From the NCBI GenBank assembly GCA_017303905.1, contig JAFLBH010000002.1:62001-126000 (forward strand): DNA of 64,000 nucleotides, given 5' to 3'. Positions within the stretch are counted from its first letter, which is position 1. Each line of letters begins with the position of its first letter. This stretch comes from Bacteroidota bacterium. Lineage in GTDB: Bacteria > Bacteroidota > Bacteroidia > B-17B0 > Aurantibacillaceae. Below, in pieces: positions 59,676 through 64,000 of the stretch. The notes under the pieces are model-generated. The model saw nothing but the letters and a program-made list of their open reading frames with translations. It was not told where the DNA came from and searched no databases. A program made the translations under genes and the position numbers.

Positions 59676-59692
59676 AAAATTGATACTTAAAA

Positions 59693-59725
59693 AAAATCGG
59701 GATTCATTTTAGAAGTCCCGATTTT
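59693..59725. terminator. Terminator between the SMC-like gene and the GT2 gene
   Basis: AAAATCGGGA (59693-59702) pairs with TCCCGATTTT (59716-59725) across 13 bases. A/T tracts flank both sides. It lies just after the SMC-like gene stop (59744), read on the minus strand. Confidence 0.8.
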
Positions 59726-59743: not shown

Positions 59744-62700
59744 TTAAGCTTCTACTTCAGTAACGATACTTGGGAAGATACGTACGTTTCCATTATCTTC
59801 TTTACGGAACTGATAAGTATAACGGTAATGACTTTCCAAACCACTCTTGTTTGGTAAACCATTAATCATCATAATATTTCTATTCTTAGCGAACTTCAAT
59901 AACTCACGTAAATAGTGAGCTGAAATCTGTCCTACCTCGTCGATGATACAATGTACTTTAAAGTCTTTACTGCTTCTATGCGAAGATTCTTTAATGAATA
60001 CGTGTAATAAAGTAATATAGATAATCGCTTTTACAAGGATATCGGTTCCGGTACTACCAATGCTGTCGATTTTATGTGTCCATCCGGTTTCATTCATACC
60101 TTCCTTAATATTGAACTTCAATTCAAATAAATCCTGTAATCGAATTTCTTCCTGATCTTGTTCTTTGATAGCCGAACGTAATTGTTCTAACAATCTAACC
60201 GCACGTGTACTGATTTCACGTTTTTGTCCGGTTGCAAAATCGGTGTTGAATAATCCTTCATTGTAAATCAAGCCATGCTCCTCACGGAACTCTTCGATTT
60301 TCTTTAATAGCTTATAAACTTTGTTATCCGATTCTTCAATCTTGATTTTGATAAACTCGATCAACTTACTTTCTTCGAACTCCGCTTTCTTAAAGTCTTC
60401 CGCAATTAAGCTGATGATATGAGAAATCTTGTCTTGTTGTCCGCTTAACTCTTTTACTTTACTGGCAATACTATCTGTTACTAAACCAATTTGAGTCGCT
60501 GTTTCCGCTATTGATAATTCAATTTTGTTCTCATTTAAAAAAGAACGTAAGTTTTGGGCAAAACGTTCATATTCCGCTTGAGTCGCATCATTACGAATCA
60601 TAAAGTTAAAGTGATTGTCGATACGGAATTTGCCCGCGTATTCATTTACATAACGTTGGAATGCACCATACTCTTCATTAAAGTGAGAATCGTTCTTTAA
60701 TAACTGAGTACACAAATCCATGATGTTGTAATTGGTACGTTTTGGTTCGGCACGCTCAATGATTTCGGCATACTTTCCATACACCGGTGTTTCACGGAAG
60801 TTGTTACTGTAAAAGTTAATACCATTATTAAATTCAATCAATTCTTCATCGAAAGCACGTTTTTGCTTATTCAACTCCATACGTTTAATGTTAAACTTAC
60901 GGGTTGCTTCTTCCAATTGAGTGGTTAAATCATTGGCAGTTTTTACAAACTCTTCTTTTTTCTGAATGTAATCCGGTAATTTATCGAAAGTTTCACGCTT
61001 ATCTTTTAAATAATCGCTTACTATCTGAGCATATTGCTCAATTTCTTTTAATTCTTCCTGTATTTCTTTGATGCGTCCTTCAACCTGCTTTAATTGTTTA
61101 CTGTCAACACCCTTCGATTTGAAATTGCTTTCCTTTTCTTTAGAGAGTTGTTCTTCCTTCTCTTCAAATTCTTTTACCTGATTTTTCTTCTCAACTTCTA
61201 ATTCAGAAATTTCAGTTTCCTGACGCTCTTTTAATTCGGCAATACGTTCTTCATTGTAAACACGCAAGCGTTCAATTTGCACATTAAAATCATTGAGGAG
61301 ATTGTTTTTCTTTTTGTTCAGAATAGATAATTCTTCTTCAATTAAATTTAATTTCTGACGGTTACCGCTTAATGAAGTTTCGATTTCAACACCTGCTCTT
61401 TGCTTCCACTCTTCTAGTTCTTCAATTAGCTTTTGTTCACGTTTTTCAGCTAATTCTAAAGAGTAGGCTAACACTTTCACCTCTTCTTTTAATTCGCCTA
61501 ATTGCTTTCCGTATTTATCGGCAGCTAAAACTTTTTCTTCGTTATTGTTAATCTGGAATTGATTTAAAGAATCTTCCAAATCACGGATTTGAGCTAAACG
61601 TTCGTTCTTTTCAAACTGATATTCTTCAATGCTTTTTGAAACAACATCCACGCTTTCTAAGTTCAACTGAATACCATATAATGATTTTACGGCTTCTTCT
61701 TTGTACTCAGGAGTTAAGTCGGTACGGAATAATAATTTCTCATTTACAACTTTACCAATGGTGGTATGCCAGTCTTTTACGTTTTTCTCAAGGTAACCAT
61801 AAAACGCATCGTGCTGCACTTCCAACTTCCCTTCTACTTCCTTAATTTCATTCTTCAGTTTAATAATTTCATTATTGATGGTATTAACCTGATTGCTTAA
61901 GGAAGCTTTCAATTTAGCTTCAGTCTGCTCCCACTCACGTTGTAAAGTTTGTACTAAGTTTTGTTTGATGGCGCGCTCACTCTTATTCTTATAATTAACG
62001 GCACGTAATTCAGCTAATTCTGTTTCAAGCGCTTTAATTTCGTTCTCATAAAAGCGTGTATTGCGAATTACCTTTTCTTCCGACTTTAATTCGTTAAACT
62101 CAATTTGTTTAGCAGTAATTTCAGAAGTTACTTCTTCTAAAGAAGCATCACGCTTTTCACGTAGTTCTCCGTCTTTTTTATTGTACTCGTTCTTTTGAAG
62201 TAATTGCAATTCGTTATAATGATTAAATACTTCAGAAGTTTTGGTATTGATTTTATTAATGTAAGCGGCTTTATCATTTCTTAATTGCTCAATTAAAGAA
62301 GAATACTTTAATTCAATACTACTTACGTTAGAAGTTAAAGATTCATATTCGCGACGTGCGATATTTAATTCTACCTGCAATTTCTCACGTTCCGAGTTTT
62401 TCTCTACCGCTTGTTCAATGTTTTTCTCTTTATACTCTTTTAATTTTTTATTGGCTTCACGAATGGTACGGTCGTAATATCCAATTTCTTCACGAATATC
62501 CTTTTGTTTTTCTTCAATGCTGGTTTTATGCTCTTCGTGACTTTCAATTAGTTTTTCAAGTTCTTCTTCCTTTTGCTTTGCCGCTTCACGAATGCTTTCA
62601 TTTTGTGTTTCCGCAAAACGTAAGCTGCTTCCTAATTTATCGGCCAATTCCATTTGTGAACCCTTTAACATATGTACTTGATCGTACTTCTTATCAATGA

Positions 62701-63427
62701 GTTCAACTAATTGCTGACTTTCCTTTTTAAGGAAGGTCTCAATATCCATGTATTTCTCATTAAACTGACGTAGCTGACGTTCCACTTGCTCTAACTTAAT
62801 ACTTGAGTTTTCGGTAGTAAGTGAGTTAGCAATGAAATCTTTGATAAAACGTGAATCAATACTGTTCTTCGAACTCAAGAAAACGTTGGTAATTGACTTC
62901 GGAATGTTTTGATATTTCTCGTTACCTTTTAATAAATGGAATTTCGATAATTGTTTATCTGTTTCTGTTCCGTAAATAATGTTACGGTAACGTTCGAAGG
63001 TATCGATTTGGTTACTGATATAAATACCGCGTTTTTCTACATTGGCAATTACTTCTTTTATTTTTAATGCTTCATCATTAGCATTTAAGAAGAAATCCGG
63101 ATTGTACGGCGCATCTAAGAAACGATATACTAATTTATTGTGGCGATATACCAACACGCAGAATGGTTTGTCTTCGGTAGCGATCTCATAAATCAAAAAT
63201 GAGTTTTCGTAGCGGAAGTAGTGTTCCTCAAAAGATTTTTGAGATTGAGCGATACCTAAACCACGGCTATTCGCACTGTAAAAAAATAAAATAGCGCGTT
63301 GTAAAGAAGTCTTTCCATAGTTATTGGTACCAACGAAACATGTATTTCCACATAACTCGATATCCGCATACTTTACGTTAGCAATATTAATCTCAACAAT
63401 TCTATTTAATATCCTGCAATTTTCCAT
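59744..63427 (-). CDS. SMC/MukB-like ATPase (DUF3584-like)
   Basis: A 1227-residue protein with the architecture of SMC proteins. The N-terminal ATPase half has a Walker A at 33-41 (GTNNYGKTS). Coiled coil runs from about 240 to 540, rich in Glu/Lys, then a non-coil centre at about 541-600 (KDWHTTIGKVVNEKLLFRTD) that looks like a hinge, then more coil to about 900. The C-terminal ATPase half has a signature-like segment at 1122 (SIGSTGTDILVKAIIYI) and Walker B at 1156-1164 (FKVHCIIDE). Length and layout fit the DUF3584/MukB-like group. No CxxC zinc hook is present, which argues against Rad50/SbcC. The gene follows, by 50 bp, a small protein gene that continues outside the window. Confidence 0.82.
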   Translation of the reverse strand: MENCRILNRIVEINIANVKYADIELCGNTCFVGTNNYGKTSLQRAILFFYSANSRGLGIAQSQKSFEEHYFRYENSFLIYEIATEDKPFCVLVYRHNKLVYRFLDAPYNPDFFLNANDEALKIKEVIANVEKRGIYISNQIDTFERYRNIIYGTETDKQLSKFHLLKGNEKYQNIPKSITNVFLSSKNSIDSRFIKDFIANSLTTENSSIKLEQVERQLRQFNEKYMDIETFLKKESQQLVELIDKKYDQVHMLKGSQMELADKLGSSLRFAETQNESIREAAKQKEEELEKLIESHEEHKTSIEEKQKDIREEIGYYDRTIREANKKLKEYKEKNIEQAVEKNSEREKLQVELNIARREYESLTSNVSSIELKYSSLIEQLRNDKAAYINKINTKTSEVFNHYNELQLLQKNEYNKKDGELREKRDASLEEVTSEITAKQIEFNELKSEEKVIRNTRFYENEIKALETELAELRAVNYKNKSERAIKQNLVQTLQREWEQTEAKLKASLSNQVNTINNEIIKLKNEIKEVEGKLEVQHDAFYGYLEKNVKDWHTTIGKVVNEKLLFRTDLTPEYKEEAVKSLYGIQLNLESVDVVSKSIEEYQFEKNERLAQIRDLEDSLNQFQINNNEEKVLAADKYGKQLGELKEEVKVLAYSLELAEKREQKLIEELEEWKQRAGVEIETSLSGNRQKLNLIEEELSILNKKKNNLLNDFNVQIERLRVYNEERIAELKERQETEISELEVEKKNQVKEFEEKEEQLSKEKESNFKSKGVDSKQLKQVEGRIKEIQEELKEIEQYAQIVSDYLKDKRETFDKLPDYIQKKEEFVKTANDLTTQLEEATRKFNIKRMELNKQKRAFDEELIEFNNGINFYSNNFRETPVYGKYAEIIERAEPKRTNYNIMDLCTQLLKNDSHFNEEYGAFQRYVNEYAGKFRIDNHFNFMIRNDATQAEYERFAQNLRSFLNENKIELSIAETATQIGLVTDSIASKVKELSGQQDKISHIISLIAEDFKKAEFEESKLIEFIKIKIEESDNKVYKLLKKIEEFREEHGLIYNEGLFNTDFATGQKREISTRAVRLLEQLRSAIKEQDQEEIRLQDLFELKFNIKEGMNETGWTHKIDSIGSTGTDILVKAIIYITLLHVFIKESSHRSSKDFKVHCIIDEVGQISAHYLRELLKFAKNRNIMMINGLPNKSGLESHYRYTYQFRKEDNGNVRIFPSIVTEVEA

Positions 63428-63477
63428 TCTATAATGTTTCTCGTTTCTTAATCTTGATTAAAGTATAGTGTTTGATT

Positions 63478-64000
63478 TTAGTTGTAAATAATTCCGCCAC
63501 CCTGTCCATCGCTGCTATCATCATAAATAGCAATTGCGTTGATAACATCAAGCAAATAAGTATAAGCATCCAATACTTTGTAGCTTTCACTTTGTTCGTC
63601 TTCCAACTCTAAAAACGAGTCACGTGACATTAAGTCGCATATATCACGCACTTTGTTTAATAAAGTTTCGGAGCGATACATTGGAATTTTTTGAAGCTTT
63701 TGTTTCAAACGTACGTTTGCATTACACTCTTCTGCGATTTCGCTCGGACGAAAACGAGAGCCAATGGTGATTTTATTATCCATGCTGGCAAATAAATCAA
63801 CCACATCGATATAACGTTCGAAGGTTTCTAGTTTTTTCTCAATGATACTATTAGCCTCACTGGTTTTAGAAAAATAGAAATAGTTATTTCCACGCTCTAT
63901 GTTGTAGCGAATCACATTAAAATAAGCCTGTAAGCGATCAAAGTTGTCGGGATTATTGATGATATCGTAAAGTCGACCCATACCGTCTTTGGTTCCGTTG
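63478..64000 (-). CDS. Small partner of the SMC-like ATPase, partial (N-terminus outside window)
   Basis: The frame runs from the right edge to the stop at 63478; at least 173 residues are visible. The ATG at 63981 may not be the true start, because in-frame codons continue upstream to the window end (NGTKDG before it). The sequence is mainly helical and acidic (SYKVLDAYTYLLDVINAIAI) and ends in a Gly-rich tail (DGQGGGIIYN). It matches no family I can name. Its size and position directly before an SMC-like gene resemble MukE/MksE or the JetB protein of Wadjet, but I see no specific motif. It is probably co-transcribed with the ATPase gene. Confidence 0.65.
   Translation of the reverse strand, partial: NGTKDGMGRLYDIINNPDNFDRLQAYFNVIRYNIERGNNYFYFSKTSEANSIIEKKLETFERYIDVVDLFASMDNKITIGSRFRPSEIAEECNANVRLKQKLQKIPMYRSETLLNKVRDICDLMSRDSFLELEDEQSESYKVLDAYTYLLDVINAIAIYDDSSDGQGGGIIYN

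Follow-up and report, generated by a model that had tools for sequence, protein, structure and literature searches.

A nuclease-free MksBEF operon conserved throughout a Bacteroidia family and probably its only condensin

At the end of a 64,000-nucleotide stretch of Bacteroidota DNA (the window; bases 62001-126000 of contig 2 in a 3.95-Mb genome that is 99.99% complete) lies a gene for a large SMC/MukB-like ATPase, preceded by a gene for a small partner. The locus raises the question, left as an alternative in a preliminary description of the DNA, of whether these proteins belong to a complex that organizes the chromosome or to one that defends the cell in the manner of Wadjet. Bacterial condensin biology has been built on Smc-ScpAB and MukBEF, and MksBEF has been viewed mostly as an accessory or a defence system. 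Here we find the three subunits of an mksF-mksE-mksB operon in a conserved gene order, widely distributed among relatives and with no linked gene for the nuclease JetD. We put the probability at about 0.75 that the window holds the end of an operon for a nuclease-free housekeeping MksBEF, which is not a defence system and is probably the only condensin of its family (Aurantibacillaceae).

Comparison of the ATPase with Pfam returned DUF3584, the MksB/JetC-type family, as the only family above cut-off, with a match covering most of the protein (Table 1), and by this match it is a DUF3584/MksB-type SMC ATPase. The MukB N-terminal domain PF04310 gave no match at E <= 1 in the Pfam search, and the Smc model TIGR02168 scored 11 bits, far below its cut-off of 567. 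In a low-confidence AlphaFold model (mean pLDDT, the predicted local distance difference test, of 63) helical arms at residues 209-536 and 600-874 surround a non-coiled stretch at about 537-599, in agreement with the head-coil-hinge-coil-head layout first proposed; the heads are poorly resolved, at a confidence too low for a structure search. Searches of the PDB with the single sequences of MksB, MksE and MksF returned nothing, and searches with profiles returned coiled-coil noise or nothing. The ATPase motifs were found where they had been read, with a signature-like GSTGT at residues 1124-1128 and the Walker B FKVHCIIDE at 1156-1164 in addition to the Walker A. Because the Walker A, the signature-like motif and the DE of the Walker B are all intact, the sequence gives no sign that MksB is a dead enzyme.

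The form of the Walker A had been singled out as atypical, and this proved to be a real and conserved feature. Indeed, G[T/A]NN[F/Y]GKTS is present in all 60 relatives examined (GTNNFGKTS in 54, GTNNYGKTS in three and GANNYGKTS in three), as is the Walker B CIIDEVGQI, and the mean column identity of MksB within the family is 82-85%. The JetD-linked homologues of our tree set carry GTQGVGKST (13/14) or GDQGAGKST (1/14) instead, together with a Walker B of CMMDEIG or CVMDEIG. Since the motif is kept in the 60 relatives and differs in the JetD-linked homologues, we take the Walker A form to mark a clade, one that sets the MksB of this family apart from nuclease-linked JetC.

The small partner, which ends 50 bp before mksB and was correctly described as running past the window edge, is the expected MukE-like protein: it matches the Pfam family MksE with E 1.5e-25 if only its part inside the window is compared and 9.9e-31 if the longer open reading frame (ORF) is taken, and its start was set by alignment to relatives. 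The kleisin gene that had been sought beyond position 64000 is also there. Its product matches no Pfam family above cut-off, and we assign it on the combined strength of its homology to JetA, encoded by the leading gene in a true JetABCD operon (phmmer E 5e-38), its position in the operon and its ranking in Foldseek. In an AlphaFold model built with 26 relatives (pLDDT 71), a winged-helix-like region at the N-terminus is followed by a bundle of helices, a linker with little order and, at the C-terminus, a helix-strand region, and the only PDB matches to this model at E <= 0.001 were JetA (8as8, 8q72) and MukF (9gm7, 7nz2). The template modelling (TM) scores were low, which flexible placement of the parts probably explains; in a second-look alignment the MukF rows (3rpu, Z 13.3) were no better than unrelated helical bundles. 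By gene content and order the unit is an mksF-mksE-mksB operon with a complete F-E-B set in the ordinary MksBEF layout, so that the 'unusual make-up' first attributed to it can be withdrawn. The PADLOC JetC model reached the N-terminus of MksB only (E 0.03) and the JetA and JetB models matched nothing, these models being weak on a true JetABCD operon as well.

Conservation of the operon is far above chance, since a full-length mksB is found in 60 relatives and F-E-B lies on one strand in 52 of the 57 loci that have both mksB and mksE, a pairing of ATPase and partner that had been named as a point to check. These counts derive from a survey of 75 related named loci, and the other five loci may be contig ends or genuine gaps. 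JetD was found neither in our extended locus (L003) nor beside mksFEB in the available flanks of the 75 related loci, which extends to both sides what had been noted downstream of mksB. In two or more genera a glycosyltransferase gene is syntenic with mksFEB, which is evidence for vertical descent of the operon. In some genera of the family, insertions of about 1 kb separate mksE from mksB; in the cases inspected, the inserted gene encodes 332-339 aa with no known Pfam family (L111:4235-5233, L112:6237-7235, L114:6651-7670). An MksB alignment model searched over 247 genomes of the phylum matched the window's own genome alone, and the subfamily had no match in phage records. Judged by these searches, the subfamily looks family-specific apart from plasmids of Persicobacter.

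The case for a housekeeping role draws on how condensins are distributed among 37 genomes of this largely uncultured family, almost all of them metagenome-assembled genomes (MAGs), and 23 further genomes of the class that belong to different families. PF12128 (DUF3584) was found in all 37 family genomes and MksE in 36, the exception being a 390-contig assembly. Smc was above its family cut-off in none of the 37, its sub-cut-off matches being weak coiled-coil or P-loop ones, and ScpB was likewise found in none, the window's own genome included. The two negatives agree, because in the class genomes outside the family Smc was detected in 4 of 23 and ScpB in exactly the same four. As Smc scores above cut-off in 204 of the 247 phylum genomes, its absence from the family is probably a derived state, though one common to other Bacteroidia families. 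With Smc and ScpB undetected in the 37 genomes and the operon universal and conserved, MksBEF is probably the sole condensin of the family, where it would do the housekeeping that Smc-ScpAB does elsewhere.

Other arrangements were seen elsewhere in the class. A short operon in the order B-F-E, with an MksB-like ATPase of 886-909 aa, an MksF-like protein of 398-410 aa and a clear MksE, occurs in several other Bacteroidia families (L048:4798-9240, L049:4602-9066, L050:4402-8808, L137:7779-12954), namely in the Smc-less G039, G046 and G055 and in the Smc-bearing relative G241. Apart from MksE, its products have no clear Pfam, NCBIfam or PADLOC family match, and a profile of the short MksB (about 890 aa) searched over the class matched the same families and none of the other Smc-less ones. 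G051, which lacks Smc, has a MukB-type operon (L131:5812-11542) with a PF04310 MukB of 1204 aa and genes for 452-aa and 231-aa proteins, the latter an MksE match. With the models used, neither Smc/ScpB nor MksE was found in G038, G040, G042, G044, G045, G047-G049, G053, G054, G058 and G059.

Table 1. Features of the mksFEB operon (positions of the window unless a locus is named)
Feature	Position	Strand	Basis
mksB (MukB/MksB-type SMC ATPase, 1227 aa)	59744..63427	-	Pfam DUF3584 (PF12128), E 4.5e-67
Walker A variant GTNNYGKTS	63305..63331	-	MksB residues 33-41
mksE (KITE subunit, 200 aa)	63478..64000, then ~80 bp beyond the window edge to the homologous ATG	-	Pfam MksE (PF21980)
mksF (kleisin, 415 aa)	outside the window, equivalent of 64190-65437; L003:6191-7438	-	JetA homology and fold
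Probable intrinsic terminator of the operon	59690..59725 (about)	-	hairpin AAAATCGGGA-N13-TCCCGATTTT and T run; 10-bp stem, 13-nt loop

The genes flanking the operon are unrelated to it: upstream of mksF are a GT4 glycosyltransferase gene and then one for a RecD/Pif1-like helicase, and downstream of mksB, as described before, a probable terminator is followed by a GT2 glycosyltransferase gene. This terminator was read from the sequence; an automated scan, whose loop limit of 8 falls short of the loop seen here, reported none at that position.

The same genome carries a second operon, of the Wadjet type, with the order jetA-jetB-jetC-jetD (L046:7448-13715; contig 4, 237447-243714). It includes a JetD-like TOPRIM gene, a 299-aa regulator-like ORF stands upstream of it, and its JetC is split into ORFs of 551 and 594 aa in different frames by an apparent frameshift, either real or an assembly error. 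Because another genome (G022) also has both systems, they can be compared between the same two organisms: MksB, MksE and MksF are 81%, 82% and 72% identical, as against 50-52% for JetC, 57% for JetB and 63% for JetA, the gap being smaller for the kleisin. Against a near relative (G003), mksB has a nonsynonymous divergence (dN) of 0.001 and a synonymous divergence (dS) of 0.15. These figures indicate that mksB is under strong purifying selection and evolves more slowly than its defence paralogue.

The presence of JetABCD with an intact-looking JetD ORF, homologous in its JetABC to MksBEF, brings up the idea that mksFEB is itself a Wadjet-like plasmid-defence complex that obtains its nuclease in trans, this JetD being one possible source. 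We find that quite unlikely, as mksB is in all family genomes whereas JetD_C was detected in at least 3 of the 37, each time at an operon other than mksFEB, and as MksB shows a housekeeping-like conservation unlike that of the faster JetC and stands apart from JetC in clade and motifs. With JetD missing from its operon, mksFEB would not cut plasmids. Thus the chromosome-organizing half of the early alternative is favoured, in the form of an MksBEF with a putative condensin function, and the defence half is not supported, there being no linked nuclease here and a true Wadjet elsewhere in the genome.

An undetected, highly diverged Smc might instead be the main condensin, with MksBEF as its accessory. 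Such coexistence of MksBEF and Smc is described for Pseudomonas aeruginosa (PMC7485682), and many Smc-less Bacteroidia families show no condensin with the models used; but Smc and ScpB score clearly where they are present, both fail in every family genome, and the residual Smc matches are of the weak kind given above, so that we regard this explanation as unlikely. A repair ATPase of the RecN or SbcC type with an unrelated neighbour, which had been named as a reading to check, would share the general head-coil-head layout and nothing else. It is contradicted by a DUF3584 match that spans most of MksB, by the lack of any RecN or SbcC family among the Pfam and NCBIfam matches of MksB and by the partners themselves, MksE and a kleisin in a conserved order in 52 loci, and we consider it extremely improbable.

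Several points weigh against a housekeeping MksBEF that acts as the only condensin. In one family genome (G012) mksE lies about 95 kb from mksB, two others (G017, G013) have mksB fragments only, and MAGs make up most of the family set. The diverged JetD in the window's own genome went unnoticed by the JetD_C model, and our JetD counts are therefore minimum values. The failure to find another condensin genome-wide in the family is for Smc and ScpB, with no search made for ScpA or MukB (PF04310), a strongly diverged Smc would escape detection, and slow evolution also fits a conserved, non-essential core function. Loop extrusion, a role at the chromosome and the status of only condensin are what we infer.

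Where the nuclease-free form came from was approached with an unrooted tree of 29 MksB homologues without far outgroups. In this tree the MksB proteins of the family and of nuclease-free Persicobacter operons are split from all JetD-linked proteins with support of 100/100, and three more JetD-less operons are nested within the JetD clade, where they look like recent losses. The family and Persicobacter are likely sisters, with the warning that long branches meet in this group and that support is 86 when distant outgroups are added. Rooting with proteobacterial operons involved branches of 4-5 changes per column, too long to tell loss of JetD from gain; loss would be the simpler history, because both outgroup operons bear a DUF7281 JetD-like gene. 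Similarly, a review proposed that the MksBEF of P. aeruginosa arose from Wadjet through loss of JetD (PMC10586767). Tentatively, a defence-type SMC complex may have shed its nuclease and become the sole condensin of a family that lost Smc-ScpAB, with other Smc-less Bacteroidia families using the shorter MksB-F-E likewise. The 'IFDR' motif by which JetB contacts JetD was tried as a marker of nuclease loss and rejected, as its helix aligns and the motif is unclear even in JetD-linked MksE/JetB.

The nuclease-free Persicobacter operons are on large secondary replicons of P. psychrovividus (pPP3, L235) and Persicobacter sp. JZB09 (Plasmid2, L253), and like mksFEB they have no JetD (5 kb flank). 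Their MksB is about 28-29% identical to that of the window, with a Walker A of GSNGFGKTT (GxNxFGKT) and a Walker B of CMIDEVG (IDEVG) near the forms of the family. The same organisms bear the JetD version on pPP6 and JZB09 Plasmid1. A JetD-less F-E-B operon with JetC-type motifs was also seen in Parabacteroides distasonis (NZ_OY725754.1, L254:1911-7341) beside genes for NAD synthase and glutamine synthetase, in a 'plasmid' record that resembles a chromosomal contig.

Among characterized systems, mksFEB is most simply set beside the MksBEF of P. aeruginosa, which is likewise a nuclease-free set of SMC, kleisin and KITE subunits, with a role at the chromosome demonstrated there (Petrushenko 2011 as cited in PMC4255302; PMC7485682). 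The likeness drawn is one of gene set, and that MksBEF is secondary to Smc-ScpAB, whereas no Smc or ScpB was detected in the present family. Wadjet JetABCD and the MksBEFG of Corynebacterium glutamicum have homologous subunits (A/B/C corresponding to F/E/B; PMC10123090; PMC10586767), and the F-E-B-D Wadjet operons of Bacteroidia share the gene order, but mksFEB lacks JetD/MksG, differs around the Walker A and Walker B, and is universal and slow-evolving where Wadjet is patchy. Escherichia coli MukBEF offers a kleisin fold match (9gm7, 7nz2, 3euh) and the same three-part logic, although the N-terminal Pfam domain of MukB fails to match the window's MksB.

Homology to the cores of MukBEF and Wadjet (PMC10512200) is the basis for expecting an ATP-driven, probably loop-extruding MksB-MksF-MksE complex. 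MksB would dimerize through its hinge and bind ATP between its two heads, which MksF would bridge while carrying dimers of MksE, and the ATP cycle would drive extrusion of DNA loops on the chromosome. In the absence of JetD, such activity would fold the chromosome and separate sisters rather than cleave DNA.

Nuclease-free MksBEF is already known as a kind of machine; what is new is its universal presence in a family, a distinct nuclease-free clade and, probably, its status as sole condensin. In the open-licence literature, MksB is paired with Bacteroidetes in one paper and with Bacteroidota in one, the latter dealing with other SMC proteins. A 2023 chromosome conformation capture (Hi-C) study reported no known condensin in two gut Bacteroidetes, and its authors invoked SMC complexes that are yet to be identified (PMC10197239). 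A family in which nuclease-free MksBEF is universal, Smc and ScpB go undetected and some members have a separate Wadjet therefore offers a direct test ground for the question of whether a motor of the defence type is enough by itself for chromosome segregation.

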